Shown: one piece after another, positions 2,795-27,747 of the stretch | Numbering within the stretch: the stretch's first letter is position 1 | Layout of the letters: every line of letters starts with the position of its first letter | NCBI GenBank assembly: GCA_004292595.1 | Contig: RDXM01000105.1 | Location: forward strand, 1 to 39,925 | Direction: 5' to 3' | Source of the DNA: Candidatus Kapaibacterium sp. | GTDB lineage: Bacteria; Bacteroidota; Ignavibacteria; Kapaibacteriales; UBA4661 | DNA: 39,925 bases | Translations under genes and position numbers: made by a program | The notes under the pieces: model-generated | What the model saw: only the letters and a program-made list of their open reading frames with translations | The model's database searches: none | What the model was told of the DNA's origin: nothing

Positions 2795-2818
2795 ACGTAC
2801 TATTCACTTACTAAATTT

Positions 2819-4753
2819 ATGAACATCACCCTCACACTCCCCGATGGCTCGAAACGCGAGTACACAAGCGGCTCCACAGGCTTGCAAGTAGCAGAATCCA
2901 TTTCTCAAGGGCTTGCTCGCAATGCCGTTGGTATTTTTCTGGGCGACAGCCCCAGAGACCTCTCCACGCCTATCACGGAGGATGCCAGCGTACGCATCGT
3001 TACCTTTGACCAAGACGAAGGCAAGCAGATTTTCTGGCACTCCACCGCGCACCTTATGGCGGAAGCGTTGGAAGCACTCTATCCAGGTGTGAAATTCGGC
3101 ATCGGACCAGCGATTGAGCAAGGTTTTTACTACGATGTAGATTTGCCAGATGGCATTAAACTTTCCAGCGAAGATTTGCCAAAAATTGAGGCAAAAATGG
3201 CGGAACTCGTCAAGCGCGATGTGCCGTTTCAGCGCGAAGACGTTGCGTGGGACGATGCCGTGAAATACTTCCAAGAAAAAGGCGACCAGTACAAATTGGA
3301 GCTTTTGGAAGGCTTCAAAGGGCAGTCTATCACGCTCTACAAGCAAGGCGCATTCACGGATTTGTGCCGTGGGACGCACGTTCCTTCCACGGGTTTTCTG
3401 AAATTCCCTAAACTCCTCTCCATCGCTGGTGCGTATTGGCGTGGCGACTCAAACCGTCAGGTTTTAACGCGCATCTACGGCATTGCGTTTCCGAAAAAGC
3501 AGATGCTAGAAGATTTTATCAAAATGCGCGAAGAAGCGGAAAAACGCGACCACCGCAAACTCGGCAGAGAATTGGAATTGTTTATGATTACCCCAACCAT
3601 TGGCGGAGGGCTTCCCGTCTGGCTTCCGAATGGTACGCTTGTGCGGCGCACACTCGAAGCGTTCTTGCGCGATGAGCAGGTAAAACGCGGTTATCAAGAA
3701 GTAATCACGCCACACATCGGCAATTTGGAAATGTACAAAACATCGGGACATTACCCATATTACGCCGATTCGCAGTTTCCGCCGATAAAATTCACCGACG
3801 AAACAGGGCGCGAAGAAGAGTATTTGCTAAAACCGATGAACTGCCCGCACCATCATCAAGTCTATTCCTCAAAGCCGCGCTCGTACAGGGATTTGCCCGT
3901 GCGCTTGGCGGAATTTGGAACGGTGTATCGCTATGAACAATCGGGCGAATTAAATGGACTAAGCCGTGTGCGCGGCTTCACTCAAGACGATGCGCATATT
4001 TACTGCACCGACGACCAGTTGAAAGATGAAATCAAAAGCACGATTGAACTCACGCAGCACGTGTTCAAAACCTTCGGCATGGACGTAACCACGCGCCTTT
4101 CCTTCCGCGACGACAATGCCGACAAGTACGGCGGCGACATCGCGCTTTGGGAACGCGCACAGCAGGAAATCAAGGAAGTTGCCGACGAAATGCAGCTTGA
4201 ATACTTCATCGGCTTGGGCGAAGCGGCGTTTTACGGTCCGAAAATTGACTTCATCGTCCGCGATGCCATTGGTCGCAAGTGGCAGCTTGGCACTGTGCAG
4301 GTGGATTACGTCATGCCAGAACGCTTCCAGCTTGAATACACGGGCAACGACAACGCCAAACACCGCCCTGTGATTATCCACCGTGCGCCCTTTGGCTCAA
4401 TGGAGCGGTTTTTGAGCATTTTGATTGAGCATTATGCAGGCAATTTCCCATTCTGGCTCGCGCCCGTGCAGGTGAGTGTTCTGCCGATTACCGATGACCA
4501 AATTCCCTACGCGCAAGAATTGACCAAGCGTTTGACCGATTTAGGCTACCGCGCAAAACTCGACGACCGTGCGGAAAAAGTGAATCGGAAAATTGCGGAA
4601 TCAGAGCAGAAGAAAGTACCGTTCGCGCTGGTAATTGGCAAAAAAGAGGTGGAATCGGGGCAGGTGGCTGTGCGTGAGCATGGTGTTGGGGATAAGGGTG
4701 CGATGAGTGTGGATGCGGTGTTGGAGGTATTTGCAGGATTGAAAAATGCCTGA
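2819..4753 (+). CDS. thrS: Threonine--tRNA ligase (ThrRS)
   Basis: A 644-residue class II synthetase of normal length that charges tRNA-Thr in the cytoplasm. The order is a TGS domain (1-62), an N2 editing domain with HSTAH (74-78) and the LCRGTH motif near 185, then the catalytic core. The core has the zinc-ligand Cys342 in [25 protein letters not shown] and a C-terminal anticodon-binding domain ([14 protein letters not shown] onward). The ATG at 2819 gives the typical ThrRS N-terminus. Codons 4-24 are duplicated at 387-451. thrS often neighbours infC-rpmI-rplT; here R-M genes lie on both sides, and the next methyltransferase frame begins inside its last codons. Its promoter may now come from the inserted R-M cassette, because only 24 bp separate it from the upstream gene. 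Confidence 0.98.
2828..2892 (+). repeat. 65-bp direct repeat, right copy (inside thrS)
   Basis: Partner of 387-451, with perfect identity over 65 bp. This copy is the functional one because it continues into the full ThrRS reading frame. Recombination between the two copies would remove 2441 bp, that is the nuclease-methyltransferase pair, and leave thrS intact. Confidence 0.95.
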
Positions 4754-5906
4754 GTTTAGCCATCATACCATCCAATCACTACCGTTTCAGATGAATCAAA
4801 ATATGCAACCACTTCAAGCTATATCGCTATTCTCAGGTGCTGGAGGTATAGATGTCGGTATTCAGCAAGCAGGATTCACCGTTCTTGCTTGTGTTGAATC
4901 CGACCACTATGCCTGCGAGACGCTACGAACCAATATCGCAAGAGAACATCATTCAACCGTAGTGTATGAGGAAGATATACGCTTACTCGACCCAAGCGAG
5001 ATGATGGAAAAACTTGGCATAGCAGAAGGTGAATTAGACCTGCTCTGTGGTGGTCCGCCATGTCAAGCGTTTTCTCAAATAGGTAAGCGTAAAAGTTTGG
5101 ACGATGAACGTGGCTTGTTACTATTTGAAATGGTACGCTTTGCAAAAGTATTAAAACCAAAAGCAATTATGATTGAACAGGTGAAAGGACTGCTGAATGC
5201 ACCAGATTCTAAGGGCAAAGTCGGTGGAGTCTTTGAATTGCTTGTTTCTGAATTAGAGGCTTTAGGGTATATTCCAAAGTGGAAAGTGGTGAATGCGGCT
5301 GAATATGGCGTTGCACAGATACGCCAACGGGTGTTTATTGTTGCAACATTAGGGCGAAATGGTTTCCAATTTCCCCCAGCAACACACGCCGCCGCAAGTA
5401 ACAACAGCGTCCTTTTTTCCTTGCCAGCCTTTGCTACGGTTGGTGATGTCTTGCAGGGAATCGGTACGCCTGAACGGAAAAACGGTCATGTTCCTCAGCA
5501 CAGCCATTTAGACGTAACACCCGATGGCGATAGATTCCGAATGAACGGCGTACCGGAAGGCTCACACCTCGCGGCACAACATCATTTGCCCGCAGAACAA
5601 CGCCGAAATCTGACCAAGAAAGACACGACCAAATTCAAGCGGCTTTCGCGGTACGAACCCTCAAACACGCTTCGTTGTGGTGAGATATTTTTTCATCCTT
5701 TAGAAAACCGCTACTTGACACCACGCGAGTATATGCGTATTCACGGCTACCCTGATGAATACCTCCTTTCAGGACCAATTCGTGGGCGCTCCGGGCGAGT
5801 GCGGCATCTCGACCAGCACCGACTTGTTGCGAATTCTGTCCCGCCACCGGTTGCAGCAGCACTGGCAAAAGAAATAGCATACACTCTGCGTTCTATCACC
5901 TCATAA
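4746..5906 (+). CDS. DNA (cytosine-5-)-methyltransferase, conventional motif order
   Basis: 386 residues from ATG 4746, which overlaps the thrS stop by 8 bp; ATG 4791 (MNQNMQPLQ) is an alternative start that puts motif I nearer the N-terminus. Motif I is AISLFSGAGGIDVG, motif IV GGPPCQAFSQ with the catalytic Cys, motif VIII QIRQRVFIV, motif IX YLTPREYMRIHGYPDEY and motif X ANSVPPPVAAALAKEI. Motif VI reads EQV instead of the usual ENV. The target-recognition segment lies around residues 220-310. It is followed after 11 bp by the NotI-like nuclease, so it is probably one of that enzyme's protecting methylases. Confidence 0.93.
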   Translation: MPEFSHHTIQSLPFQMNQNMQPLQAISLFSGAGGIDVGIQQAGFTVLACVESDHYACETLRTNIAREHHSTVVYEEDIRLLDPSEMMEKLGIAEGELDLLCGGPPCQAFSQIGKRKSLDDERGLLLFEMVRFAKVLKPKAIMIEQVKGLLNAPDSKGKVGGVFELLVSELEALGYIPKWKVVNAAEYGVAQIRQRVFIVATLGRNGFQFPPATHAAASNNSVLFSLPAFATVGDVLQGIGTPERKNGHVPQHSHLDVTPDGDRFRMNGVPEGSHLAAQHHLPAEQRRNLTKKDTTKFKRLSRYEPSNTLRCGEIFFHPLENRYLTPREYMRIHGYPDEYLLSGPIRGRSGRVRHLDQHRLVANSVPPPVAAALAKEIAYTLRSITS

Positions 5907-5917
5907 ACCATATAATC

Positions 5918-7018
5918 ATGCCCCAAATTTTTGAAATTTTCGGCTATCCAATTTCTCTCCATACTCCAGAGATAGAGCAGTCGCGCCGTCAGGCACGATG
6001 CCCATTTATGGGTGGCGAATGCGACGGTGGAGGCAATCGGTATTCTTCGCAGATAGAATTGAAGCACCACGCAGAGCTTCGGGAATATTTTGGTGAGTGT
6101 GAGGTTGTTGCTTCTGGAATATGCTCTATTCGCTTACTTGAAAATGATTCACCATGGGTTGTTTGTCCTCGCAGACTTCTTGTTTTGGGGCGTGAAAATG
6201 CAGTGGAACGAAATCATCAACAGAACTCTGAAGTGGCGATGCTGAAGTTGCTTGGTTACAAAAAGGGAACAAATCTTGGAATTTGGTCCGAGGTCAAACT
6301 CGAATACAAAGAAGTGATGAATGGCGTTGAAAAAACATTTGATTACACATTTGACTACCTTGTCATGCCGATAGGTTCAGTCGGTCAGGATAGTATTTGC
6401 GAGCAACTGCACGGGAAATGGTCGCTCCTGCGCCGAATATTGGAAAAGTCTGGATACACGATTGCGCGTAGAGATGGAATGGATTATGTCGAAAACTTTC
6501 CAATCGGTGTGCCAAGTATCATTGAAATTATGACCTCAAGTACGTCAGGCGGTAACAAGCGAAAACGCACCACAATAGCACAATCGTTTGAGGATGCAAT
6601 CTTTCAAAAGCCGCACGCCGCGCCGAGTATCAATAAACGTCAAGTTTGGGCAAGAATGGCAAGCCAACTCATTGTCAAATCAGAAGCCGCTCTGTCGTGG
6701 GGCGGTAAAACGCTATGGCTGATTCAGGACACGCTCGCAGACTACATCTCTGCCTCAACCGCATTGGATTTGAATAAATTTGTCGCTTCTCATACCGATG
6801 AAGTCAATATCCTCAGTTTTGCATATGCCAAGGAATCCTCGCCCAATGGCATTGTAGAATTGAAGACCGACAATCTCTTCGCGGGAAAAATCTCATCGGG
6901 CGGCATTGAGCCAAGTTTTCAGGATATTGTCAAATCTCCTGTATGTCCGCCGCTCTCTTCGCTATTATCTTTGCTTGTTTCAAAAGGTAAGCCAGTAAAT
7001 GTAGCTATTGCGCCATGA
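5918..7018 (+). CDS. NotI-like type II restriction endonuclease
   Basis: 366 residues. The N-terminus (IFEIFGYP, then CPF at 28, Cys35, GIC at 69 and VVCPRRLL at 83) matches the NotI/EagI family pattern, in which four cysteines hold a structural iron. IWSEVKLEY (122-130) and FDYTFDYLV (141-149) follow, and further on IEIMTSS, which I read as the position of the active-site ExQ in NotI with Met in place of Gln. NotI-family enzymes cut GC-rich palindromes. The gene lies between two C5 methyltransferases and its stop overlaps the start of the next gene (ATGA, 7015-7018). The target site cannot be read from the sequence. The family call is strong from the cysteine pattern; active-site details are from memory. 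Confidence 0.85.
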   Translation: MPQIFEIFGYPISLHTPEIEQSRRQARCPFMGGECDGGGNRYSSQIELKHHAELREYFGECEVVASGICSIRLLENDSPWVVCPRRLLVLGRENAVERNHQQNSEVAMLKLLGYKKGTNLGIWSEVKLEYKEVMNGVEKTFDYTFDYLVMPIGSVGQDSICEQLHGKWSLLRRILEKSGYTIARRDGMDYVENFPIGVPSIIEIMTSSTSGGNKRKRTTIAQSFEDAIFQKPHAAPSINKRQVWARMASQLIVKSEAALSWGGKTLWLIQDTLADYISASTALDLNKFVASHTDEVNILSFAYAKESSPNGIVELKTDNLFAGKISSGGIEPSFQDIVKSPVCPPLSSLLSLLVSKGKPVNVAIAP

Positions 7019-7983
7019 ACTTCATCATACTTCAAAAGAGAAAACCAAAGGTCATAGATTTATTCGCTGGCTGCGGCGGAATGTCGCTCGGCTTTGAAAA
7101 TGCAGGATATGAAATCGTTGCTGCCTTTGATAACTGGGATGCAGCTATCAATGTTTATCGTCAAAATTTCACGCACCCGATTTTCAAACAAGATTTAGCC
7201 ATAATCCAAGATTATACGACGTTTCAACACCTTCGCCCCGATGTTATTATTGGTGGTCCGCCTTGTCAAGATTTTTCCCATGCCGGAAAGCGGGATGAAA
7301 ACGGCGGTAGAGCCGATTTAACGATTTCTTTTGCAGAAATTGTTTGCGCCGTGCAGCCTCAATTTTTCGTTATGGAAAACGTTGAACGCGCTATTACCAC
7401 ACAGCGTTACAAAGCAGCAATGGCAATGTTCCATAAGGCTGGCTACGGGCTGACGCTACGAGTATTGGATGCGAGCTACTGCGGCGTTCCGCAAAAACGT
7501 AAACGCTCATTTTTAATTGGTGGGCTTGGCGAACGAGAGAGTTTTTTACAAGCATACTTGGATGCAGGATTATCACAGCAAGCAATGACTGTACGTCAAT
7601 ATTTTCAAGAGGAACTTGGTTTCTTACCTAATACAGAGTTTTATTACCGCCACCCGCGTAATTACTCGCGCCGCGCCGTGTACACTCTCGACGAACCCAG
7701 TGCGACGATTCGTGGCGTGAACCGTCCCATTCCGCCAAATTACGCCCAGCATTCGATTGATGCTGCATCTCTGAGCGAAGGTGTACGCCCACTGACCACG
7801 CATGAACGCGCTTGCATTCAGACATTTCCGCTCAATTTTCAATTTTCAGGAACAAAAAGCGATATGGAGCAAATGATTGGGAATGCAGTTCCTGTGCGGC
7901 TTGCGGAGTTTGTTGCTCATGCCCTGCAAATGTACAAAAACAATGTGCATTTATTAACGCAACAAACCGAACTATTTGCATGA
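7015..7983 (+). CDS. DNA (cytosine-5-)-methyltransferase, second of the NotI-like cluster
   Basis: 322 residues with all main motifs in normal order: I (VIDLFAGCGGMSLGF), IV (GGPPCQDFSHAGKR), VI (MENVERAI), VIII (PQKRKRSFLIG), IX (LTTHERACIQTFP) and X (MIGNAVPVRLAEFVAHAL). It belongs to a different subgroup from the 4746 methylase (LFAGCGG against LFSGAGG), so it is not a recent duplicate. It is coupled by 4-bp overlaps on both sides, to the nuclease at 7015 and to the amino-methyltransferase at 7980, so the block is probably translated as one operon. Confidence 0.95.
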   Translation: MNFIILQKRKPKVIDLFAGCGGMSLGFENAGYEIVAAFDNWDAAINVYRQNFTHPIFKQDLAIIQDYTTFQHLRPDVIIGGPPCQDFSHAGKRDENGGRADLTISFAEIVCAVQPQFFVMENVERAITTQRYKAAMAMFHKAGYGLTLRVLDASYCGVPQKRKRSFLIGGLGERESFLQAYLDAGLSQQAMTVRQYFQEELGFLPNTEFYYRHPRNYSRRAVYTLDEPSATIRGVNRPIPPNYAQHSIDAASLSEGVRPLTTHERACIQTFPLNFQFSGTKSDMEQMIGNAVPVRLAEFVAHALQMYKNNVHLLTQQTELFA

Positions 7984-9094: not shown

Positions 9095-12000
9095 ATGAAA
9101 TTTTCTCGTACCCGCATTGTTTCACGTTTCGCTGCACTTTTTTGTGCATTCTCCCTTCCTCTGAACGCCCAACAAACCTTCCCTTCCAATGGCGAAGCGT
9201 CAAACCCCAAACCAGAATGCTACGCAATTACAAACGTCCGCATCGTTACATCGCCCGCAAGTAGTGTAGAAAAAGGAACGCTGCTTGTGCGGAACGGCAT
9301 TATTGAAGCTGTTGGCGCGAATGTGAGTATTCCTGCGGATGCCGTCGTGTACGACTTGAAAGGAAAATCGGTCTATCCCTCGTTTATCGAATCCGATAGC
9401 GACTACGGAATGCCCGTACAACCGCCTCCCGCGCCCTTTTCCTTCAATGCTCTTCCACAATACGAGACCAAAACACAAGGTGCGTACGCTTGGAATGAAG
9501 CGTTGAAGTCCGATAAAACCGCACATACAGCCTTTGTACCGAATCCAACAACGGCATTGGAATTGCGCCGCTTGGGGTTCGGTATCGCACACTCGTTTGT
9601 GCATGATGGTATCGCACGAGGCTCATCAACACTGGTTGCGCTGGGTGAAGGTGCTGCGCACACGTTGATTGTGAAAGACCGCGCCGCCGCACAGTATTCG
9701 TTCCAAAAAGGCTCATCGCGTCAGGTTTATCCTACCTCGCTCATGGGCGTGATTGCACTCCTTCGCCAAACCTACTTGGATGCGGATTGGTACAAAAAAA
9801 TTCGCCCGCAAGAATCTGTTTTACCAAAAGAAGTAAATATCGCGCTAGAGGCGTGGAGCGCTCTTCAGAGTTTGCCGCAAATCATTGAAATTAACGGAAA
9901 ATTGAATCTTTTCCGCGCCGACGCGCTTGGCGACGAGTTTGGTGTGCAATACATCATTCGCACAAGCGGCGATGAGTATCAGTACGTGGAAGAAGTAAAA
10001 AAAACAAAAGCCGCGCTCATTACCTCGCTTAATTTCCCACTCGCCTACAACCTCGACGACCCGCTTGATGCCTTGAACGTGAGCCTTGCCGAGATGAAAC
10101 ACTGGGAACTCGCACCCACTAATCCCGCCACGCTCGCAAAAAACGGCATTAGTTTCGCGCTCACAAGTTCTGGTTTGCGCAATCGAAACACTGATTTCAT
10201 GCCGAATCTGCGCACCGCCATCAAATACGGACTCACGAAAGAGCAAGCTCTCGCCGCGCTCACGACCGTTCCCGCCCAGCTTTTGCGCATTGCGGAGAAA
10301 GTCGGCACACTCGAAAAGGGCAAACTGGCGAACTTCCTCGTTACTTCCGGTGATATTTTCGATGCAGAAACAATCATCTTCCAAAACTGGATTTTAGGAA
10401 AGCCATATGAGCTTGTAAACCCGATAAATGCTGATGTTCGCGGCACATACTCGCTGAATGTTGCGGGAATTGGCGACTATACACTCACGCTGAAAGGCAG
10501 TGTCAATGCGCCTTCCACAGAATTGGTGAAAAATGGCGATTCTACAAAAATCACGCTTGCTTTTGAACGCTCTGGCGGTGGAAACCTCGTAACAATGCGC
10601 TTTCCGCGCGATGGCAAAGCAAAACAAGACATGACGCTGACGGGCTGGATTGACACGAAAGCAAGCGGCGAAAAAATGGGTGGAGACACGTGGTCTGGCA
10701 AAGGTCAGGACGAAACAGGCGCATGGCTCACGTGGTCTGCAAAGCGCGTGAAATCGTTTGAAGTAAGCAAAACCGCCGACACAAGCAGCGTTTTTGTTCC
10801 GCAAGGTTCGCGCAGCTACCCTTTTGGTGAATACGGCTTGAAATCGCCTTTGAAGCAAGAAACCGTGCTGCTGAAGAACGCAACCGTGTGGACAAGCGAT
10901 GCGGACGGCGTTGTGAAAAATGCAGATGTATTGCTGAAAAATGGCAAGATTGCTGCTGTTGGCAAGAATTTGTCGGATGCAAGCGCGAAAGTCATTGACG
11001 CAACAGGCAAGCACGTAACGCCCGGAATCATTGATGAACACTCACATATCGCCGTTCAAGCGATTAACGAAGCAAGCCAAAGCGTTACCTGCGAGGTGCG
11101 CGAGGCGGATGTGATTAACCCCGAAGACATCAACATTTATCGGCAGTTGGCGGGTGGTGTTACGTCGTCACATATTCTTCACGGCTCGGCGAATGCGATT
11201 GGTGGGCAGACAATTTTGCTAAAATTGCGTTGGGGCGCGAGCGCGAGCGAGATGAAGTTTGACGGTGCGCCGCCATTTGTTAAATTTGCGCTCGGCGAAA
11301 ACGTAAAGCAGTCGAATTGGGGCGATAATTTTAACGTCCGATTCCCGCAAACCCGCATGGGCGTTGAGCAGGTGATGGTAGATGCCTTCACCCGCGCCCG
11401 CGAGTACGAGGCTTCGCTGAAAGCTGCGGCAAATGATAAAAACGGCAGTCCCGTCCGCCGCGACCTAGAATTGGACGCGCTTGTGGAAATTTTGAACAGC
11501 AAACGTTTTATTACCTGCCATTCGTATGTGCAGTCAGAAATCACAATGCTGATGCGGGTTGCAGAGCAGTTTGGCTTCAAAGTAAACACCTTTACGCACA
11601 TTTTGGAAGGCTACAAAGTTGCTGACAAAATGAAGGCGCACGGCGCAAGTGCGTCGTCCTTCTCGGATTGGTGGTCGTACAAGGCGGAAGTGGCGGAAGC
11701 AATTCCGTACAACGGCGCAATTCTTCACGCAATGGGCGTAAACGTGGGCTTTAATTCAGACGATGCAGAAATGGCGCGGCGTTTGAACCAAGAAGCGGCG
11801 AAAGCCGTGAAATATGGCGGTGTTTCGGAAGAAGATGCGATGAAATTTGTAACACTGAATCCCGCGAAAATGCTACGTGTCGAAAACCGCGTTGGCAGCC
11901 TGAAAACAGGCAAAGATGGTGATGTTGTTGTGTGGTCGGACCATCCGCTTTCCATCTATGCCCGCGTCGAAACAACGTTTGTCGATGGCATTCCCTACTT

Positions 12001-12169
12001 CGACCGCTCACGCGACGCGCAATTACGTGAGGAAATCCGCCAAGAACGCGCCCGCATCACGCAACTGATGGTGCAAGCAAAAAAGGGCGGCTATCCGACG
12101 CAGCCTGTTCCGCCGAAGAAAAATTATGAGAAAATCCATTGTGATTTTATTGGCGAAACGGGACAGTAA
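9095..12169 (+). CDS. Secreted amidohydrolase with two tandem amidohydrolase-like halves
   Basis: 1024 residues beginning with a signal peptide (basic MKFSRTR, hydrophobic core, cleavage near LNAQQ). The C-terminal half carries the metal site of the imidazolonepropionase-like amidohydrolases: GIIDEHSH (His649 and His651), TCHSY, NTFTHI and the late Asp in NSDDAE, followed by the usual LNPAKMLR and GKDGDVVVW segment. The N-terminal half has the same layout (VRNGIIEAVG, then VYPSFIESDSD, ending in GKLANFLV), but the HxH is replaced by ESDSD, so it looks catalytically dead. A periplasmic metal hydrolase is likely; the substrate is not evident. It stands alone, 137 bp behind the R-M block. Confidence 0.9.
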   Translation: MKFSRTRIVSRFAALFCAFSLPLNAQQTFPSNGEASNPKPECYAITNVRIVTSPASSVEKGTLLVRNGIIEAVGANVSIPADAVVYDLKGKSVYPSFIESDSDYGMPVQPPPAPFSFNALPQYETKTQGAYAWNEALKSDKTAHTAFVPNPTTALELRRLGFGIAHSFVHDGIARGSSTLVALGEGAAHTLIVKDRAAAQYSFQKGSSRQVYPTSLMGVIALLRQTYLDADWYKKIRPQESVLPKEVNIALEAWSALQSLPQIIEINGKLNLFRADALGDEFGVQYIIRTSGDEYQYVEEVKKTKAALITSLNFPLAYNLDDPLDALNVSLAEMKHWELAPTNPATLAKNGISFALTSSGLRNRNTDFMPNLRTAIKYGLTKEQALAALTTVPAQLLRIAEKVGTLEKGKLANFLVTSGDIFDAETIIFQNWILGKPYELVNPINADVRGTYSLNVAGIGDYTLTLKGSVNAPSTELVKNGDSTKITLAFERSGGGNLVTMRFPRDGKAKQDMTLTGWIDTKASGEKMGGDTWSGKGQDETGAWLTWSAKRVKSFEVSKTADTSSVFVPQGSRSYPFGEYGLKSPLKQETVLLKNATVWTSDADGVVKNADVLLKNGKIAAVGKNLSDASAKVIDATGKHVTPGIIDEHSHIAVQAINEASQSVTCEVREADVINPEDINIYRQLAGGVTSSHILHGSANAIGGQTILLKLRWGASASEMKFDGAPPFVKFALGENVKQSNWGDNFNVRFPQTRMGVEQVMVDAFTRAREYEASLKAAANDKNGSPVRRDLELDALVEILNSKRFITCHSYVQSEITMLMRVAEQFGFKVNTFTHILEGYKVADKMKAHGASASSFSDWWSYKAEVAEAIPYNGAILHAMGVNVGFNSDDAEMARRLNQEAAKAVKYGGVSEEDAMKFVTLNPAKMLRVENRVGSLKTGKDGDVVVWSDHPLSIYARVETTFVDGIPYFDRSRDAQLREEIRQERARITQLMVQAKKGGYPTQPVPPKKNYEKIHCDFIGETGQ

Positions 12170-12177
12170 TTCTCTTT

Positions 12178-12253
12178 AGTGTTAAGTTTTGGGTGTAAGT
12201 TTTATCAGGCTTGCAGAAGTTTTCGCTCCAAAATCAACTCAAAACTTAACACT
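12178..12253. repeat. Intergenic inverted-repeat element, copy A (before 12281 gene)
   Basis: Arms 12178-12194 and 12237-12253 pair over 17 positions with one G-T pair, leaving a 42-nt loop. The right flank continues as actcaaaacgtagcatttt, nearly the same as the flank of a second element at 18121. Both elements end about 28 bp before the start codon of the next gene. Confidence 0.8.
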
Positions 12254-12280
12254 CAAAACGTAGCATTTTGTTTTTTGATT

Positions 12281-12604
12281 ATGAAACCTGAAAAAATTTT
12301 AGAAGACTTAAAAATCGTAGCAGAACAAATCGGCGTACACGTCATTATTGACAAAGGAAATTTCGTTGGTGGGCATTGTTTGGTGTATGAGCAGCGCAAA
12401 ATCGTGCTGAATCGCCATTTGCCGACCGACGTAAAAGCAGCGAAACTCGCACAAGGCTTGGGGCAATTTTCCCTTGAGGAAGTCCAATTAAAGCCGCCCG
12501 TGCGCGATTTTATCGAACGCGAGAAGCAACGCCTCCGCGAACGCGAACAAGCAAACGAGCAATCCATTCTGGCTCAACAGCTCGTTCAGGAAGCGAATAA
12601 CTAA
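12281..12604 (+). CDS. Small conserved-looking protein of unknown function
   Basis: 107 residues from ATG 12281 (MKPEKILEDLK); the longer frame upstream would read through an inverted repeat and is rejected. I do not recognise a named family. The first 70 residues look like a compact fold (amphipathic helix, then VHVIIDKGNF, GGHCLVYEQR and KIVLNRHLP), followed by a charged helix rich in Arg, Glu and Gln. No signal peptide or membrane segment is visible, so it should be cytoplasmic. It follows the amidohydrolase but the inverted repeat between them suggests separate transcription. Confidence 0.7.
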   Translation: MKPEKILEDLKIVAEQIGVHVIIDKGNFVGGHCLVYEQRKIVLNRHLPTDVKAAKLAQGLGQFSLEEVQLKPPVRDFIEREKQRLREREQANEQSILAQQLVQEANN

Positions 12605-12734: not shown

Positions 12735-12775
12735 TTGATATTTTTGTGCAGTACAAAACCCAACAAAATAATCTC

Positions 12776-12888
12776 AGTACACGACAAAAACTCTGTCAGT
12801 CGCTTCAGTATTCACTTTTGCACACAAGGGGTTGCAAGCCCTTGTTATCAGGCTTTATGAGTATTTTGACAAAAAATTGTCGTGTACT
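12776..12888. repeat. Small inverted-repeat element with 'gtacacgacaa' ends
   Basis: The ends agtacacgacaa (12776-12787) and ttgtcgtgtact (12877-12888) are perfect 12-bp inverted repeats. Inside is another pair, acaaggg and cccttgt. The same ends flank an unrelated interior at 21816-21963. No coding capacity; a non-autonomous element is the simplest reading. Confidence 0.8.
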
Positions 12889-12899
12889 TAGCAAAATAA

Positions 12900-13124: not shown

Positions 13125-15881
13125 ATGGCACGACCCGCAAAACCACGTAATCCCTCAGCCAACGCTGCTGGAAATAACGCACACCTCCCCGCACTTTCTC
13201 AAGAAATTTCTCAAGAAGAACGTGCGCTCAATCAGGGACAGGATGTTGAGCAAACACCCGTAGAAGATTCTTCAACACAAGATTCACCAGCGGAAATTCC
13301 GAAAGTAAAAACCAAAGCTGCGCCGAAAACAAGTGCGAAAAAAGCTACTGGCAAAAAACTGGATAAAGTTGCTGTTGCAATAGAAAAGACTATTGACATT
13401 GCAAGCGAAACGACAAGCCGCAAAGCCGCCCCAAAACAAGCTCCTGCGGCAAAAGAGATTTTTGTGAAAGAAATTCCCGCAAAGCAGCAGGAATCCTTGA
13501 AGCAAGTCAAGCAAACCCAGCAGAAACAAGAATTGCCCAAACAAATTCCACCAAAACAAGAAGCTCAAAAGCAAGATTCTACCACGCTTCCAAGCAAAGC
13601 ACCGCTAGTGCAGCAAACACCGCCGCCCCAGGCGAAACCTCAGAACGAGCCTCCCTTGACGCTTGCAGAGTTTTTGGTGCAGAAGCATGGCATTGTGAAT
13701 ACGGCAAATGTATTCGCCAATTTAGGAACGGCGCACTTGTACGAGCATATTCTCTTTTTGCGCGAAGGCACATTTTCGGCACAGGGTGCGATTGCAACGA
13801 GTGTTCATGCGGCTTCTGCGGGAACAGACCACCACATTTTTATTGTGGAAGAGCCAGTGAATCAAGAATACATTGCATGGAACGAGGCGCATCGCCGCTT
13901 CGACCAAGCAACATTTAATGCGCTCAAAACCCGCATCACTGCTTATTTACAGGGCAAAAGCATTTATGTACAAGATTGTTTTGTTGGCTCAGACACGCGC
14001 TTGCGTCTGCCGTTCCGCATTATTACCGACAACGCAGGAGAGTCGCTTGCGGCGCGAAATCTCTTCCCCGAAGCACAAGCGCATGAACTAAAGGGCTTCG
14101 ACCCGCGCATGACAATTCTCTGCGCCTCGAACTTCAAAGGCATTCCAGAGCTAGATTCTACGCCGTCGGAAGCATTTGCCATTATTGACTTTTCGCAGCG
14201 ATTGGCGATTATCGGCGGCTCGAAGCACATCCGCGACATTAAAAATATCGCCTTTACCGTAATGAGCTATGCAATGCCGCTCCGCAAGGTACTTCCTCTG
14301 CATAGCGCATCATTGCTGAGTTCTAACGGTGATACAACCTTACTTGTCGGTAATGCAGGTGTCGGCAAAACGACCCTTGCGCTGGACGCAAACCGCCAAA
14401 TGATTGGCGACGATGCCAATGCCTGGGGCGACGAAGGCGTATTTAATCTTGAAAGTGGCATTTTTACTTGTGTTCAGCCAAATGCCACAAGCGCAGCACA
14501 AGGCAATCCTGCACTTCAAGCCAATGACGCACAATCCTTGCTGCTTTCGGCAACAAAACTTTTTGGAACGGTGCTGGAAAATGCACAGATTGATGCGCAA
14601 AGCCGCACCGTGACATATGCTGAAGGTGGACAAAGCACAGCAACGATTTCTCGAATCGCGCTTGGAATGGAAGCAGCGTTGTCGTCAAAAAATCGCGGTG
14701 GGCATCCGAAACACGTGATTTTGCTTGTAAACGACGCACTAGGCATTCTCCCGCCCGTGGCGCGGCTTACACACGAGCAAGCGGTGTTTTTCTTTTTGTC
14801 GGGCTATCAATCACGCGCCGCCGAAGGCACGGAAAAAGAGCCGCAAACGAGCTTCAATCCTTGCTTTGGCGAGGTACAAATGCTCGAAGACCCGCTTGTC
14901 TATGCAAATATCTTTCGGGAAAAATTGCGCAGAAACCGCTCCAATACGTGGCTGGTGAATACGGGCATTCAGGGCGAAGCGGGCGCGAAAGCCTCGCGTA
15001 TGAAGGTGGAGCAAAGTCGCGCTATCATTCATGCCATTATGAACGGTGCGCTGCAAAGTGTGGAATATAGTATTGATGAGGTCTTGGGGCTGCAAATTCC
15101 CGCTGTTTGTCAAGGCTTGCCCGCGCCGATGCTGAATCCACGCAATGCCTGGCACGACCGCGCAAAGTATGACAAAGCCGCACAAAACCTTGTGAAACGC
15201 TTCAATGAGCATTTTACGCGCTTCGCTGCTAAACTTGAGCCAATATTTGCCGATGCACTGAACGCTACAGCACAACAGGCGTTGATGGCGCAAAATGCCC
15301 AGCCAAAACCAGAGCAAAAATCACCACAAGGCAAACCAAACGCTCAACAACCAAGCAACCAACAACCAAGCAACCAAGCCCCACAGAACCAACAACCAAG
15401 TAACCAAGCTCCAAGCAAGCAGAACGAGAAATTTGCACAGAAACATCAAGCCGTACCGATGGAAACCGAGACTTCGTCAGGCTTTGATGACTTTGATGCT
15501 GAAAATCTTGACGACAACACCAACGCCGAGCCCCTTCCAGCAGGGCTTTTCGCCAGCACAGACGCACCAGAATTTGCGCCAGAATTTCATCCAACACTTG
15601 AAAGCGCGATAGATGCTGCCTTTGAGGGCGAAGATGCTCTTGGAATACTTATTGGCGAAGAAAACCGCAATGATGCAAATGGCGATGATGGTAATGGCGA
15701 TGGTGATGGTGATGGTAATGGCGATGGTGATGGTAATGGCGAAGGCAGCGACAATTTCTCCGAAGATGGCGAATTTTCTCCTACCCAGCAAGGTCAAGGC
15801 AACCGCGAATGGCGTGGCGGCGGAAACAACCGCTATCGCGGCGGGCGCGGTGGACGCGGGCGCGGTGGACGAAGAAGGTAA
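13125..15881 (+). CDS. PEP carboxykinase (ATP)-like protein with disordered N-terminal extension and Gly/Asp-rich, RGG-type tail
   Basis: 918 residues from ATG 13125 (MARPAKP). Residues 1-178 are low complexity, rich in Lys, Gln, Pro and Ala. Residues about 180-720 follow the ATP-PEPCK fold: IIDFSQRLAIIGG, FTVMSYAMP, the P-loop GNAGVGKTTL (409-418), IGDDANAWGDEGVFN, RGGHPKHVI, LGILPPVARLT, WLVNTG and LNPRNAW. Several usual active-site positions differ: the TGRSPKDK loop is replaced by ASAGTDHH, the WYAGEMKK segment reads KHIRDIKN, and the MHCSAN segment reads LHSASL. A Gln/Asn/Pro tract follows, then (DG/NG)n repeats and a tail of GGRGGRGRGG type. ATP-PEPCK is normally about 530 residues. ATP binding is likely; PEPCK activity is doubtful. 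Confidence 0.88.
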   Translation: MARPAKPRNPSANAAGNNAHLPALSQEISQEERALNQGQDVEQTPVEDSSTQDSPAEIPKVKTKAAPKTSAKKATGKKLDKVAVAIEKTIDIASETTSRKAAPKQAPAAKEIFVKEIPAKQQESLKQVKQTQQKQELPKQIPPKQEAQKQDSTTLPSKAPLVQQTPPPQAKPQNEPPLTLAEFLVQKHGIVNTANVFANLGTAHLYEHILFLREGTFSAQGAIATSVHAASAGTDHHIFIVEEPVNQEYIAWNEAHRRFDQATFNALKTRITAYLQGKSIYVQDCFVGSDTRLRLPFRIITDNAGESLAARNLFPEAQAHELKGFDPRMTILCASNFKGIPELDSTPSEAFAIIDFSQRLAIIGGSKHIRDIKNIAFTVMSYAMPLRKVLPLHSASLLSSNGDTTLLVGNAGVGKTTLALDANRQMIGDDANAWGDEGVFNLESGIFTCVQPNATSAAQGNPALQANDAQSLLLSATKLFGTVLENAQIDAQSRTVTYAEGGQSTATISRIALGMEAALSSKNRGGHPKHVILLVNDALGILPPVARLTHEQAVFFFLSGYQSRAAEGTEKEPQTSFNPCFGEVQMLEDPLVYANIFREKLRRNRSNTWLVNTGIQGEAGAKASRMKVEQSRAIIHAIMNGALQSVEYSIDEVLGLQIPAVCQGLPAPMLNPRNAWHDRAKYDKAAQNLVKRFNEHFTRFAAKLEPIFADALNATAQQALMAQNAQPKPEQKSPQGKPNAQQPSNQQPSNQAPQNQQPSNQAPSKQNEKFAQKHQAVPMETETSSGFDDFDAENLDDNTNAEPLPAGLFASTDAPEFAPEFHPTLESAIDAAFEGEDALGILIGEENRNDANGDDGNGDGDGDGNGDGDGNGEGSDNFSEDGEFSPTQQGQGNREWRGGGNNRYRGGRGGRGRGGRRR
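15680..15743 (+). repeat. Hexamer tandem repeat (ggygatggtratg) inside the PEPCK-like gene
   Basis: About ten imperfect 6-bp units encode alternating Asp-Gly and Asn-Gly. The phase stays in frame, so gain or loss of a unit changes length by two residues without a frameshift. Confidence 0.85.
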
Positions 15882-15953
15882 AGGAAAGGATGAAACCTGA
15901 AAGATGAAGGTTTGATGCGGAGTTTGAGCATTTTTTCATTTTTGCAGAAGAGC

Positions 15954-16187
15954 ATGAAAACGTATCCCGTTATTTTGGAACGCGGCTTGGATGGCTGGAT
16001 TGTCGCAACGTGTCCAAGCATTCATGGCTGCATCAGTCAGGGACAAACGCGGGCGGAAGCCTTAGCAAATATCCGTGAGGCGATAGAGCTGATGCTGGAA
16101 ACCATTGAAGAAAAAGGCTGGGAAAAGCCACTGGAATTTTTGGAAGTAACGACGATTGACATTGAGGCTGAGGTCCTCCATGAGTGA
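15954..16187 (+). CDS. hicB: HicB-family antitoxin
   Basis: 77 residues from ATG 15954 (MKTYPVILERG). The HicB partial RNase H fold is recognisable: a V-I-L-E-R-G strand, DGWIVATCPSIHGCISQGQT and EALANIREAIELMLE. The C-terminus is short and shows no separate HTH or ribbon-helix-helix region. It should bind and neutralise the HicA toxin encoded next and may repress the operon. It overlaps hicA by 8 bp. The antitoxin-first order is common for HicBA pairs of this size. Confidence 0.92.
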   Translation: MKTYPVILERGLDGWIVATCPSIHGCISQGQTRAEALANIREAIELMLETIEEKGWEKPLEFLEVTTIDIEAEVLHE

Positions 16188-16404
16188 GCATTTGCCTTCG
16201 CTCTCGGGCAAAGAATGCGTGAAAGCATTGATGCTCCAAGGCTGGGTGGAACACAGGCAGCGCGGAAGTCATATTATTCTTCAAAAGCAAGGTTTTCCGC
16301 GAGGTTTGTGTATTCCCAATCATAAAACTCTTGACAAGGGTACGCTCGCCTCCATTATTCGGCAGGCAGGATTGACTCCCGAAGAATTTCGACAGCTTTT
16401 GTAA
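16180..16404 (+). CDS. hicA: HicA-family mRNA interferase toxin
   Basis: 74 residues from ATG 16180 (MSEHLPSLSGK), overlapping hicB by 8 bp. It has the small double-stranded-RNA-binding-like HicA fold: SGKECVKALMLQGW, then RQRGSHIILQK with the conserved catalytic His, PNHKTLDKGTLASIIRQAGLT and EEFRQLL. The toxin cleaves mRNA during translation when free of HicB. The catalytic GSH is intact and the frame is unbroken, so the pair looks functional. Confidence 0.94.
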   Translation: MSEHLPSLSGKECVKALMLQGWVEHRQRGSHIILQKQGFPRGLCIPNHKTLDKGTLASIIRQAGLTPEEFRQLL

Positions 16405-16582
16405 TGATGACCAAAACAACAGCAAACGTAAGTGGTGTGTAAAAAGGTTGTAAGCAAGATATGATGCGGTGTTGAGGATGATTCCTTCATCCCTCAGCCC
16501 TCATATTTCCCTCGTTCTTGTGTGTGTGTCCATTTTTTGTAAACCTTGTATTTCCAAACCTTTGGAACAGGAGATGTACGCT

Positions 16583-18013
16583 ATGATGCTCGACAACTAT
16601 ACAACAGATGGGTTCTATGATGAACTCTTTGAACGCGACGGCACACCTCGCGCTGGAGCCGTTCGCCTTGTTGATACCCTCAAAACAATGGGTTCGGACG
16701 ACCTCCGCTTGCGCCAACAAGCCGCCGAATCAACGCTGATGAATTTGGGAATTACCTTCAATGTCTATGGCAGCGATGCGGGCGTAGAGAAAATTTTTCC
16801 CTTCGACATCCTTCCGCGTATCGTCGAACACGTGGAATGGCACACGCTCCAAACGGGATTGTATCAGCGCATCAAGGCACTCAACCTCTTTTTGAACGAT
16901 ATTTACCATGAGCAAAAAATCGTTAAAGATGGCGTAATTCCTGAGTTTGTGATTAGTTCGAGCAAGGCGTATTTGCCCGCGTGTAAAGGCTTAGAGCCGC
17001 CAGACGGCATTTGGTGTCATATCACGGGAACGGACATTATCCGCGACAAAGACGGCACGTTCTACGTTTTGGAAGATAATTTGCGCTGTCCGTCGGGCGT
17101 TTCCTACGTCTTGGAAAATCGCCAAGTGATGAAACGGACGTTTCCCGAAGTCTTTGCTACGTCGAATGTTATCCCCGTTGATGATTATCCGTCGCGTCTG
17201 TTGGATGTGTTGCATCACATCGCTGGAAAGCCTTCGCCAACCTGCGTGGTGCTTACGCCGGGCATTTACAATTCTGCATACTTCGAGCATTCCTTCTTGG
17301 CGCGTCAGATGGGCATTGAGCTTGTCGAAGGGCGCGATTTGGCGGTGGTTGATGGCTACGTGCAGATGCGCACAACCAAGGGTTTCCGCCGCGTGGACGT
17401 GATTTATCGCCGCGTGGACGATACCTTCCTCGACCCAAAAGTCTTCGAGCCGTCGTCAATGCTGGGTGTTCCAGGAATTATGGATGTGTATCGCAATGGC
17501 AAAGTGGCTCTGGCAAACGCGCCTGGGACGGGCGTTGCGGACGACAAAGTCGTCTATGCCTACGTTCCGCAGATGATTCAGTATTATCTGGGCGAAGAGG
17601 CAATTTTGAAGAACGTCCCCACCTACGTTTGCTGGGAAGACGACCAACGGCAATACACGCTTGACAATATCGAACAACTCGTGGTGAAAGCGGCAAATGA
17701 ATCAGGCGGATACGGAATGCTCGTCGGACCACACGCAAGTACGGAAGACCACGCAAAATTCCGCACACTCGTCGCCGAAAACCCGCGTAATTACATCGCG
17801 CAGCCGACTATTTCTCTTTCGCGCGTTCCCACCATCATTGACAACCAAGCCTTCGAGGGGCGGCACGTGGACTTGCGTCCGTACATTCTCTACGGCAAGG
17901 ATATTTACGTGATGCCGGGCGGACTTACCCGCGTCGCACTGCGCAAAGGCTCGCTTGTGGTCAATTCCTCGCAAGGCGGCGGCAGCAAAGATACATGGGT
18001 GCTGGGCGCGTAG
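16583..18013 (+). CDS. Circularly permuted ATP-grasp type 2-like protein (DUF404/DUF407)
   Basis: 476 residues from ATG 16583 ([16 protein letters not shown]). The start is chosen because aggag at 16569-16573 lies 9 bases upstream; the ATG at 16574 would touch it, and the longer frame has no family support. [16 protein letters not shown]-like ([21 protein letters not shown]), [63 protein letters not shown] and DLRPYILYG are hallmarks of the family. Members often neighbour an alpha-E protein and a transglutaminase, and the family is thought to make or modify peptides; those partners are absent here, so this copy stands alone. Confidence 0.93.
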
Positions 18014-18148: not shown

Positions 18149-18988
18149 ATGGAAACTTCTTCAACAGACATCACCACACCGTTTGTACGCACCTGGCAAC
18201 GGATGCGCGGATTTGTACACTCTCTCGAAGAGCGCATCACCAGAGGCGCGGAAACGGAGCTTGGCAAAGATTGGCGGCGCTATATTTTTCGCATTTTTGC
18301 CTTACTCTGCGGCATTGCTTTTGTTGTCGGTGCGTTTGACCTTGTTTTTATGCCGTGGTACGTCGGGCATGACCAAATAACGCGGATGCCCGACGTGCGC
18401 AATATGAGCTTCACGCAAGCCGCAAAAATGCTGGAAGAGCGCGGTTTTACTGTCAAAACGGCAAGTGAGTATTACAATAATTCTGTGCCAGCAGGGCATA
18501 TTGTCAGCCAGATGCCCTTTCCGCTGAGTATGGTGAAATCAAGCCGCACGGTGTATCTCACGCTCAGTCGCGGCAAGCAACTCTTGGAGATGCCGAACTT
18601 GGTCGGTTTGAGCGTCCGCGATGCGCGTATTGCACTGATTCGCTTGGGCTTGTCGCTCAATAATGCCGCATATGAATTTAATGAAAATGTTGCGGCAAAC
18701 GTCATTTTTGAGCAAAGCGTGAAAACAAAAGAACGTCTAAACTTTGGCGCGACGGTAGATGTGCGCGTGAGCTTAGGACCAGAAATTGTCTTGCTACTCG
18801 TGCCAGATGTGGAAGGAAAATCACTGGAAGACGCGAAAAATATGCTTGTTGGAGCTGGCTTGACCATCGGCGACATTACGCCGCAAGTTGATGAAACCTT
18901 TGTAACAAATACGGTTTTGAAACAAAATCCCGCTCCAAACGATTCAGTAAAAACGGGAACGGCTGTGAATTTGATTGTTGCGAAATAA
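18149..18988 (+). CDS. Membrane-anchored PASTA-domain protein
   Basis: 279 residues. A cytoplasmic N-terminus of about 45 residues is followed by one transmembrane helix (about 46-70, IFRIFALLCGIAFVVGAFDL) and three PASTA domains. These begin near MPDVRNMSFTQA (79), MPNLVGLSVRDA (148) and VPDVEGKSLEDA (216). Each ends in the usual short strand (VYLTLSRG, VRVSLGP, VNLIVAK). PASTA domains bind peptidoglycan fragments. There is no kinase or transpeptidase domain, so this may act as a cell-wall sensor or scaffold. It lies 60 bp before the receiver/cyclase gene in the same direction. Confidence 0.93.
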   Translation: METSSTDITTPFVRTWQRMRGFVHSLEERITRGAETELGKDWRRYIFRIFALLCGIAFVVGAFDLVFMPWYVGHDQITRMPDVRNMSFTQAAKMLEERGFTVKTASEYYNNSVPAGHIVSQMPFPLSMVKSSRTVYLTLSRGKQLLEMPNLVGLSVRDARIALIRLGLSLNNAAYEFNENVAANVIFEQSVKTKERLNFGATVDVRVSLGPEIVLLLVPDVEGKSLEDAKNMLVGAGLTIGDITPQVDETFVTNTVLKQNPAPNDSVKTGTAVNLIVAK

Positions 18989-24365: not shown

Positions 24366-27287
24366 ATGAATTCTCTTCACGAATTTGTTCAATGGACGCG
24401 CACCCACATTAAAGGCGATGAAAAGGGCGAAGCGCAAATTTTCCTTGACCGCTTTTTTCGGGCATTCGCCTGGGAAGGCACAAAAGAAGCAGGTGCGCAA
24501 TATGAAGAACGCATCCGCAAAAAAGAACATGGAAAGCGCACCACAACGTCCTTTGCAGATTTGGTATTGCGTCCAGATGCTGCGCAAAAACGCTCTGGTC
24601 TGCTTGTCGAAATGAAAAAGCGCGGCGAACATCTTGCCAATCATTATATGCAGGCGTTCGAGTATTGGCTGCACCTTGTTCCGCACCGCCCGCGTTACGT
24701 CATGCTCTGCAATTTCGATGAGTTTTGGATTTACGATTTTGACCGTCAGCTCGACGAACCGATGGACAAACTCACGCTGGACACCTTGCCGGAACGCGCT
24801 TCCGCACTGGGCTTTATGCTGAAAGAAGAAAAAACGCCGCAGTTCGGCAACAACCGCGAACAAGTTACCCGCGAAGCCGCCGAAGCCGTTGCTGCGATGT
24901 TTCGGCATCTTCTGAAATGGAAAATTCCTCGCCCCGAAGCCCAACGCTTCACGCTTCAATGCGTCTTTGCCATGTTTGCCGAAGATTTGGGCTTGCTGCC
25001 AAACGGCTTGTTTTCGGAGATTGTGAACGAATCCGAAAATAACCCTGCTCATTCCTACGATGCCATTGGTGGACTATTTCGTCAGATGAATTCCCCTGAA
25101 CCCGCACGGGGCGGTCGTTTCAAGGGGGTGCAGTATTTCAATGGCGGACTATTTGCCAAGATTGAACCTATCGAACTTCAGCACCCGCACATTTTTCACC
25201 TGCAATTTGCCGCAAAGCAGGATTGGAGCAAGGTTAATCCCGCTATTTTCGGTACGCTCTTCGAGCAGAGCATGGACGCAAGTGAGCGTCATGCCTTGGG
25301 CGCACACTACACGAGCGAGGCAGACATTCAGAAAGTTGTGCTGGCGACCATCACCCGTCCTTGGCGTGAGCGTATTGATGCGGCTTCCACGTCGGCGGCT
25401 CTCCGCGAAACCGCCCGCGACCTCGCCCAGTTCCGCGTTCTCGACCCCGCCTGCGGAAGCGGAAACTTCCTCTACGTCGCCTACCGTGAAATGAAACGCT
25501 TGGAGCGCGAACTCTGGGCGAAACACGCCGCCAATTTTTCCATTCAACACCGCGAAAGCATCGGGCAAACCTCCAACGTCAGCGTTCGGCAGTTTTTCGG
25601 AATGGACAAAAGCGCCTTTGCAACCGAACTTGCCAAAGTTACGCTGCTTTTGGCAAAAGAACTGACCATTGCCGAAGCCGAAACCCTCTCCCGAAGCGGC
25701 GAACAAGCCGCCTTCGCACCCGACGACGCGCTCCCGCTCGAAAACCTTGACGACAACATTCGCTGTGTCGATGCGCTCTTCACACCATGGGCGGCGGCAG
25801 ATGCGATTATCGGCAATCCGCCATTTCAAGCAAAAAATAACATGGCGCAGGAGTTCGGCGCGGACTACGTTGCCCGTCTCCGTGCGGCGTACCCGGACGT
25901 TCCCGGACGCGCTGATTATTGCGTTTTTTGGTTTCGCAAAGCGCATGAACACTTGCCTGCGGGCGGACGTGCTGGGCTTGTCGGCACGAACACTATTCGT
26001 CAAAATTTTTCCCGTGAAGGCGGTTTGGACTTCATCGTTGCCAACGACGGCGTGATTACCAATGCCATCGGAACGCAGGTCTGGAGCGGCGATGCGGCTG
26101 TTCATGTTTCGATTGTGAATTGGATAAAATCTCCGCACGACAAAGAACGCGCCGCACAAAAAATACTCATGCTCCAAACAGGCGACCACGCCACAAGCCC
26201 TTGGAAAACCTATCAACTTGACCGCATCTCCGCTTCGCTGTCGCCAGAAACCGATGTAACGACCGCAAAGCCACTCGCCGCAAACACCAATGCCCATGCC
26301 TGCTATCAAGGGCAGACGCATGGACACGAAGGTTTTTTGCTGAGTGTGGCGGAGGCAAAGGAGATGATGAAACGAGACACAAAATATTCGGATGTTCTAT
26401 TTCCCTACCTCACAGGCGATGAATTGGTTGGAAACGTCCACAGCCAACCAAAGCGTTTTGTCATTGATTTTTCACCACGCGACGTTCTGGAATCGCATCA
26501 GTATAAACACCTCTTTGAGCGCATCAAATCTACCGTTTTACCCGCAAGAGAAGAAGCCGCTTTTAAAGAACAAGAGCGCAATGCAAATGTTCTGGCGGAA
26601 AACCCCAAAGCCCGCATCAACAGGCATCATCATAACTTTTTGCAAAAATGGTGGCAGCTTTCCTACGTCCGTGCCGATATGCTCTCCCGCATCGCCCCGC
26701 TCAAGTGCTATATTGCGTGCGCCCGCGTTACCAAACGTCCTATTTTTGAGTTTATCGGCACGGATATTCGACCCAGTGATGCAATGTCTGTTTTCGCCTT
26801 TGACGATGACTACTCGTTCAGTGTTTTGCAGAGCAGTATTCACTGGGCATGGTTTGTGGCAAAATGTTCAACTTTAGAGGCAAGATTCCGCTACACGTCG
26901 GAAACAGTGTTCGACACCTTCCCTTGGGCGCAAGCCCCCACACTAAAGCAAGTACAGGCAGTAGCAGCAGAGGCAGTAGAACTGCGGCGTTTGCGGCGAG
27001 AACTGTGCGACAAGCACGGGTGGAGCTTGCGGGAACTCTACCGCAGCCTCGAAACGCCCGGCAAACACCCCTTGCGCGACGCACAAGAGTCACTGGACGC
27101 GAGTGTTCGTGCGGCATACGGCATGAAAGCAAACAATGATGTGTTGGAGTTTTTGCTGGAATTAAACCGTGATTGCGTAGCACGGGAAGCACGCGGCGAG
27201 AGCATCACCGCACCGGGACTGCCGCCTTCTGTCAAGGACAGGAGCGCGTTTGTGAGTGGGGATTGTGTACGGATGATTACGGGATGA
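24366..27287 (+). CDS. MmeI-like type IIL restriction-modification enzyme (single-chain)
   Basis: 973 residues, close to MmeI (919). The N-terminal nuclease shows Asp65 in SFADLVLRP and Glu82-Met-Lys84 in LLVEMKKRG, the D-x(n)-ExK site. A helical linker follows, then a gamma-class N6-adenine methylase with motif I DPACGSGNFL (360-369) and NPPF (484-487). The target-recognition domain spans about 620-870 (IGTDIRPSDAMSVFAFDDDY and SIHWAWFV are family landmarks), with a helical C-terminal part. Such enzymes cut about 20 bases from an asymmetric site and modify one strand, so they need no separate methylase. The frame is complete. It converges on the MNT gene with one base between stops. Confidence 0.95.
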   Translation: MNSLHEFVQWTRTHIKGDEKGEAQIFLDRFFRAFAWEGTKEAGAQYEERIRKKEHGKRTTTSFADLVLRPDAAQKRSGLLVEMKKRGEHLANHYMQAFEYWLHLVPHRPRYVMLCNFDEFWIYDFDRQLDEPMDKLTLDTLPERASALGFMLKEEKTPQFGNNREQVTREAAEAVAAMFRHLLKWKIPRPEAQRFTLQCVFAMFAEDLGLLPNGLFSEIVNESENNPAHSYDAIGGLFRQMNSPEPARGGRFKGVQYFNGGLFAKIEPIELQHPHIFHLQFAAKQDWSKVNPAIFGTLFEQSMDASERHALGAHYTSEADIQKVVLATITRPWRERIDAASTSAALRETARDLAQFRVLDPACGSGNFLYVAYREMKRLERELWAKHAANFSIQHRESIGQTSNVSVRQFFGMDKSAFATELAKVTLLLAKELTIAEAETLSRSGEQAAFAPDDALPLENLDDNIRCVDALFTPWAAADAIIGNPPFQAKNNMAQEFGADYVARLRAAYPDVPGRADYCVFWFRKAHEHLPAGGRAGLVGTNTIRQNFSREGGLDFIVANDGVITNAIGTQVWSGDAAVHVSIVNWIKSPHDKERAAQKILMLQTGDHATSPWKTYQLDRISASLSPETDVTTAKPLAANTNAHACYQGQTHGHEGFLLSVAEAKEMMKRDTKYSDVLFPYLTGDELVGNVHSQPKRFVIDFSPRDVLESHQYKHLFERIKSTVLPAREEAAFKEQERNANVLAENPKARINRHHHNFLQKWWQLSYVRADMLSRIAPLKCYIACARVTKRPIFEFIGTDIRPSDAMSVFAFDDDYSFSVLQSSIHWAWFVAKCSTLEARFRYTSETVFDTFPWAQAPTLKQVQAVAAEAVELRRLRRELCDKHGWSLRELYRSLETPGKHPLRDAQESLDASVRAAYGMKANNDVLEFLLELNRDCVAREARGESITAPGLPPSVKDRSAFVSGDCVRMITG

Positions 27288-27288
27288 A

Positions 27289-27612: not shown

Positions 27613-27644
27613 AGATTTTCTGGTCGTGTCCTAAAAGTGTTGCT

Positions 27645-27747
27645 ATACTAAAAATGGGTAAAAATTGCATATCAAAAAGTGAAAAAAATGAGATGTAGTC
27701 CACCTTCAAGGTGGACTACATCTGAAGCAACAAACCTTTATCAGTAT
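27645..27747 (+). repeat. 103-bp element with perfect hairpin, copy 1
   Basis: It is nearly identical to 31052-31154. It contains a palindrome at 27691-27723, agatgtagtccacctt, one base, then its exact complement. The ends tatact and cagtata are inverted. This copy is cut on the right by the IS at 27748. Confidence 0.9.

Follow-up and report, generated by a model that had tools for sequence, protein, structure and literature searches.

A PEPCK-like protein of Kapaibacteriales with replaced substrate-side residues and two disordered arms: a candidate pseudoenzyme in genomes that encode GTP-PEPCK

PEPCK is a textbook housekeeping enzyme of gluconeogenesis. ATP-dependent PEPCK, PckA (PF01293, TIGR00224; solved from Thermus thermophilus, 1j3b, and E. 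coli, 1aq2), is homologous over the whole core to the protein described here, which is encoded on a 39,925-nucleotide stretch of Candidatus Kapaibacterium sp. DNA (the window). The two share the P-loop Lys/Thr, the GDD motif and Arg449, but the window protein has seven replaced residues and disordered extensions of about 180 (N-terminal) and 205 (C-terminal) residues. GTP-PEPCK (PF00821, NF003253), also encoded in this genome, catalyzes the same reaction as the ancestral ATP-PEPCK and has no useful sequence similarity to the window protein. RG-rich tips of disordered linkers often make nucleic-acid or condensate contacts in other proteins; RG-rich tails may also serve protein contacts or condensation. 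RG/RGG-tailed RNA-binding proteins have a disordered acidic linker tipped with Arg-Gly in common with the window protein, which, unlike them, carries no helicase or other RNA-binding domain and for which RNA binding is a prediction. A role of the PEPCK fold outside gluconeogenesis, as proposed here, has a parallel in mammalian PCK1, which is reported to act as a protein kinase on INSIG1/2; PCK1 is of the GTP type, keeps PEPCK activity and lacks an RGG tail, so the parallel is one of analogy. Searches of the open-access literature turned up neither a description of a PEPCK pseudoenzyme or RGG-tailed PEPCK nor the combination of GTP-PEPCK displacement, substrate-site loss, two disordered arms, an RG tip and living intermediates. 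The homology and the fold family are already known, and the combination of features appears to be new.

The features of the locus are collected in Table 1. The start codon of the PEPCK-like gene is supported by relatives that open with the same MAR motif. The window protein matched PF01293 with 394 bits (E 9e-118, residues 195-666; Pfam gathering score 26.5), and the solved ATP-PEPCKs 1j3b, 1ii2 and 1ygg aligned with it, 1j3b with 337 bits over residues 189-709. PF01293 was the sole match in the Pfam scan, in which PF07475 (HPr kinase, a fold relative) gave none. The C-terminal region comprises about 205 low-complexity residues and ends with RGGRGGRGRGGRRR. The layout described by a sequence-only reading of this DNA (Lys/Gln-rich N terminus, Gln/Asn tract, Asp-Gly run, RGG tail) was found in full, and frame translation and alignment confirmed its claim that the core keeps the P-loop (GNAGVGKTT) and IGDD. 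AlphaFold2 modeling of the core from an alignment with a single relative (L053) gave a pLDDT of 28 and a pTM of 0.18.

Table 1. Features of the window, in order of position
Feature	Position	Strand	Remarks
Two neighbouring C5 DNA methylase genes	4746-5906, 7015-7983	+	One unidentified gene between
Amidohydrolase	9095..12169	+	Conserved upstream neighbour
Small gene	12179..12604	+	Conserved upstream neighbour; no family match
PEPCK-like gene	13125..15881	+	Complete, 918 aa; ATG at 13125, stop ends at 15881; orthologues share MAR start
N-terminal low-complexity extension	13125..13661	+	About 179 residues; Ala/Lys/Gln/Pro-rich
Degraded ATP-PEPCK core	13662..15263	+	About residues 180-713; PF01293 195-666; NCBIfam models 183-706, under cut-offs
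P-loop GNAGVGKTT	14349..14375	+	Residues 409-417; Lys/Thr kept, Ser250 to Ala
IGDD	14403..14414	+	Residues 427-430; both Asp kept, next Glu to Ala
C-terminal disordered linker	15264..15764	+	Gln/Asn tract, short conserved motif LPAGLFAS, Asp-Gly run
Arginine-glycine tail	15792..15878	+	GQGNREWRGGGNNRYRGGRGGRGRGGRRR
HicB-HicA toxin-antitoxin pair	15912-16187, 16180-16404	+	PF15919, PF07927; directly 3' of PEPCK-like gene
Circularly permuted ATP-grasp	16469..18013	+	Conserved downstream neighbour
PASTA-domain gene	18149..18988	+	Directly after tailed PEPCK in G009
MmeI-like restriction-methylation gene, then Type ISP specificity-domain piece	24366-29498

The 4.6-Mb assembly contains no other match to PF01293. 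The closest orthologue lies on JAAFIV010000022.1, from a MAG named 'Ignavibacteria bacterium' (76% identity in the best segment). One degraded gene was present in each of the eight genomes of the window's genus (g1; G000-G007), and none of the eight contained a second, canonical ATP-PEPCK. Complete frames encode 811-975 residues, and the gene of G003 consists of two contig-end pieces. In a sister genus, G008 carries a more degraded copy of 828 aa (PF01293 match 101-571, 182 bits). G009, from another sister genus, encodes two ATP-PEPCKs, one canonical (L042) and one of 720 aa (L041) with an intact active site and a basic tail at the C terminus only. The canonical comparison set consisted of 30 proteins, 29 from other families of the order plus the canonical copy of G009 (L002). 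Their C-terminal extensions past the core measure 0-12 residues, compared with 179-219 in the tailed proteins; the N-terminal arm is present in the window's genus and G008 and absent from the tailed copy of G009. ATP-PEPCKs with long frames in G014, G134 and G169 were rejected as tailed proteins, their extra length being upstream open frame. Weak PF01293 matches in three families of the same class (f11, f17, f28) belong to a distant PEPCK type of ~600 aa with its own motifs and a separate lineage. At 69-92 bits, this type is the sole PF01293 match at L089, L094 and L087, and the genomes of these loci yielded no GTP-PEPCK.

The seven complete proteins of the genus share a tail plan of basic N-arm, acidic linker and basic RG tip, with low sequence identity. 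The last 30 residues, preceded by an acidic stretch, carry a net charge of +7 to +9 in all seven. A linker motif, IPPSLFAS or LPAGLFAS, is common to both subgroups of the genus. RG-rich C termini are found in all seven complete proteins, are sparse in G003 and absent in G008, where the C terminus is Lys-rich rather than RGG. The genomes covered by DNA-pattern and tail-peptide searches, both insensitive, yielded no further clear case of a protein with an RGG tail.

The active site was compared at 21 positions taken from an alignment (E. coli numbering), with residue roles as in ATP-PEPCK. All 21 are invariant in 31 proteins, the 30 canonical PEPCKs and the tailed copy of G009. In the window copy R65, Y207, K213, S250, K288, E297 and R333 are replaced, the calls for E297 and R333 hinging on the alignment in regions with insertions; still in place are the Lys/Thr of the P-loop (kinase-1a), the two Asp of GDD (kinase-2) and Arg449. 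The sequence-only reading had listed the RSPKDK, YAGE-KK and HCSAN segments as replaced. All three are indeed altered, but the metal-ligand His within the last persists (LHSAS), so that among the residues on the oxaloacetate/metal side (R65, Y207, K213, H232, R333) H232 alone is retained. Substitutions at R65, Y207, S250 and E270 are common to all seven complete proteins of the genus. Beyond these, two patterns occur: G001, G002, G004, G006 and G007 have Arg for H232 and retain K212, K213, K254, T255, D268, D269, K288, R333 and R449, whereas the window copy and G005 retain H232 and have substituted K213, K288, E297 and R333. In G008 the P-loop Lys (K254) and the first Asp of GDD (D268) are gone. 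The same gradation is evident from the 147 columns invariant in the canonical proteins: the G001 group keeps 97 of them, the window pair 81 and G008 49. Scores against the pckA equivalog model TIGR00224 were 370 (window), 496 (G006) and 174 (G008) bits, all below the curated cut-off of 590, which the tailed copy of G009 passes with 679, and the window protein lies under every NCBIfam PEPCK cut-off. It is a PF01293 homologue, yet by its scores it would not count as a functional pckA equivalog, and in all likelihood it is no longer a working PEPCK.

Within-group pairs were analyzed for selection by the Nei-Gojobori method. Core dN/dS was 0.095 for window/G005, 0.033 for G002/G004, 0.049 for G001/G006 and up to 0.117 for other pairs. 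The tails are under looser constraint than the core (0.10-0.41 where synonymous change is unsaturated). The protein is maintained by selection after its catalytic residues were lost, as would be expected of a pseudoenzyme lineage. Shared substitutions and tails are seen in one genome of the genus after another, and selection on the gene is purifying; the layout is thus beyond chance. This recurrence also excludes, for the genus, that the tails are absent in all relatives. The old protein is strictly preserved and so very probably has a new task.

The proposal that a second, canonical pckA be looked for in the window's genome was followed; none was found, and instead there was a full GTP-PEPCK gene on contig C176, apart from the window contig. 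Its product scored 1012 bits against NF003253 (cut-off 504), aligned almost over its full length with solved GTP-PEPCKs (9e32, 946 bits) and kept YGGN-GKK, SACGKTN and GDD. Among 123 genomes of the order, GTP-PEPCK was found in all nine with a degraded ATP-PEPCK compared with 2 of the 114 others. The two exceptions, G049 and G057, have a canonical ATP-PEPCK and a more distant GTP-PEPCK (336 and 333 bits versus 489-553). Pairwise identities of 68-87% among six GTP-PEPCKs of the genus and G008 suit a single acquisition; the nine genomes are thus not nine independent data points, and the co-occurrence represents one or two evolutionary events at most. We propose that GTP-PEPCK took over the metabolic role of the old ATP-PEPCK. 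A search for the PEP-utilizer domain in the window's genome gave one match, in a 680-aa frame of the size expected for PTS enzyme I; there was no sign of PPDK, of PEP synthase or of any alternative enzyme that forms PEP. PEP carboxylase is present. G009 lacks GTP-PEPCK, but its second ATP-PEPCK is an acquired, canonical copy that groups with family f7 (support 100/100), so that another enzyme can bear the metabolic load there too.

The gene order amidohydrolase, small gene, PEPCK-like gene, ATP-grasp is conserved in the genus and supports orthology of the PEPCK-like genes. In the window the PASTA gene comes after the ATP-grasp gene, and in G009 immediately after the tailed PEPCK; from this shared neighbour, the window locus is probably the ancestral place of pckA. 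Elsewhere in the window, the region of the C5 methylase pair looks like a restriction-modification cluster, and the 520 non-coding bases that precede the PEPCK-like gene contain an inverted repeat (12773-12891, 15-nt arms 89 nt apart), possibly a small mobile element or a regulatory hairpin. In a maximum-likelihood tree of the core, a branch supported at 100/98 separates the 30 canonical proteins from the rest, the tailed copy of G009 comes next, and the degraded proteins lie beyond a branch supported at 100/96; the branch of G008 is very long and its exact position unsure. The G009 copy thus resembles the window protein in its PASTA-side locus, its proximity in the tree and its basic low-complexity C-terminal tail, and differs in its 21 of 21 intact active-site positions, its lack of an N-terminal arm and its score above the pckA cut-off. 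Its place at the base of the degraded group indicates that the tail probably preceded the loss of catalysis. The most economical order of events would be the C-terminal tail, a spare enzyme and then loss of catalytic residues together with gain of the N-terminal arm and RG tip.

These observations lend good support to the earlier idea of a rebuilt metabolic fold: substrate-side residues are lost, GTP-PEPCK accompanies each degraded copy in its genome, and selection is purifying. A vertically inherited ATP-PEPCK would first have acquired a basic, disordered C-terminal tail with its active site intact, as in G009 now. In the ancestral lineages of genera g1 and g2, GTP-PEPCK would next have taken over PEP supply. 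No longer needed for catalysis, the old protein would have shed oxaloacetate- and metal-side residues and gained the N-terminal disordered arm and, in g1, the RG-rich tip. The g1 protein can probably still hold a nucleotide, most likely ATP or another NTP bound via the kept P-loop, GDD and Arg449, and its tails may contact nucleic acid, with RNA as first choice, or a partner. The outcome would be an NTP-responsive binding or scaffold protein rather than a gluconeogenic enzyme. As a whole, a displaced ATP-PEPCK turned NTP-responsive pseudoenzyme with nucleic-acid- or partner-contacting tails is our best explanation, held tentatively; binding of nucleic acid by the tail in vivo is likewise plausible at somewhat less than even chance. 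The RNA-handling or kinase-like role suggested by the sequence-only reading may apply, but its sharpest form, in which tail gain, displacement and loss of catalysis, in that order and each represented by a living intermediate, made the enzyme an ATP-gated RNA-binding post-transcriptional regulator, is doubtful. In G008 the P-loop has no Lys, GDD is short of one Asp and the C-terminal tail is Lys-rich, so neither NTP binding nor the RGG tip can be a requirement for the family as a whole. Among functions we rank an NTP-responsive binding protein first, a GTP-PEPCK regulator second and a new phosphotransferase third.

The second of these would be a regulatory pseudoenzyme, a partner or sensor for GTP-PEPCK or the PEP/oxaloacetate node whose tails serve protein contacts and not RNA. 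At locus L038 of G008, the degraded gene (47-2539) lies directly upstream of the GTP-PEPCK gene (2631-4634) on the same strand, with about 100 bases between them. This adjacency may, however, just mark the landing site of the newcomer gene, and members of the window's genus have the two genes on separate contigs. Homology over the length of the fold persists in G008 despite loss of the P-loop, and IPPSLFAS/LPAGLFAS is kept amid diverged tails, as a partner-docking site would be. On balance we consider such a regulator unlikely.

A kinase or other phosphotransferase, in which the kept ATP site acts on a new substrate, would account for the five g1 genomes that lack R65, Y207 and H232 and keep the nine residues from K212 to R449 listed above, and it has a precedent in the protein kinase activity reported for PCK1 on INSIG1/2 (PMC8033018). 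K213, K288 and R333 are nevertheless also lost in the window copy and K254 and D268 in G008, and the window's genome has a gene of its own for HPr kinase, the obvious relative by fold, which makes this reading quite unlikely. Replacement of HPr kinase by the window protein was rejected, its gene being present on contig C64.

A PEPCK that has diverged in sequence and still works, its tails affecting only location or turnover, is improbable. The whole core aligns, the P-loop Lys/Thr, GDD and R449 are kept, as is H232 in the window copy, and the tailed copy of G009 looks fully active, so a tail alone does not imply loss of function. KK, P-loop and GDD are PCK-specific elements, and single canonical residues are missing in some natural PCKs (PMC2684135). 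Here, however, R65, R333, K213, K288 and S250 are lost together, every NCBIfam PEPCK cut-off is missed, and GTP-PEPCK is present. A decaying pseudogene, to which the loss of catalytic residues by degrees, most advanced in G008, and the long branches might point, is hardly credible and for the genus is refuted by purifying selection (core dN/dS 0.03-0.12, tails 0.10-0.41 where measurable), by the retained locus order and by a frame intact in eight genomes and across two contig ends in G003.

Annotation pipelines that rely on PF01293 would name these degraded genes pckA. One bacterial family preserves the apparent steps of a conversion: an intact enzyme with a tail (G009), a protein with the ATP site kept and the substrate site lost (G001, G002, G004, G006, G007), further loss (window, G005) and loss of the P-loop (G008), and with them the GTP enzyme that plausibly permitted it. 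The conversion of an enzyme to a non-enzyme following gene displacement thereby becomes directly testable in these genera.
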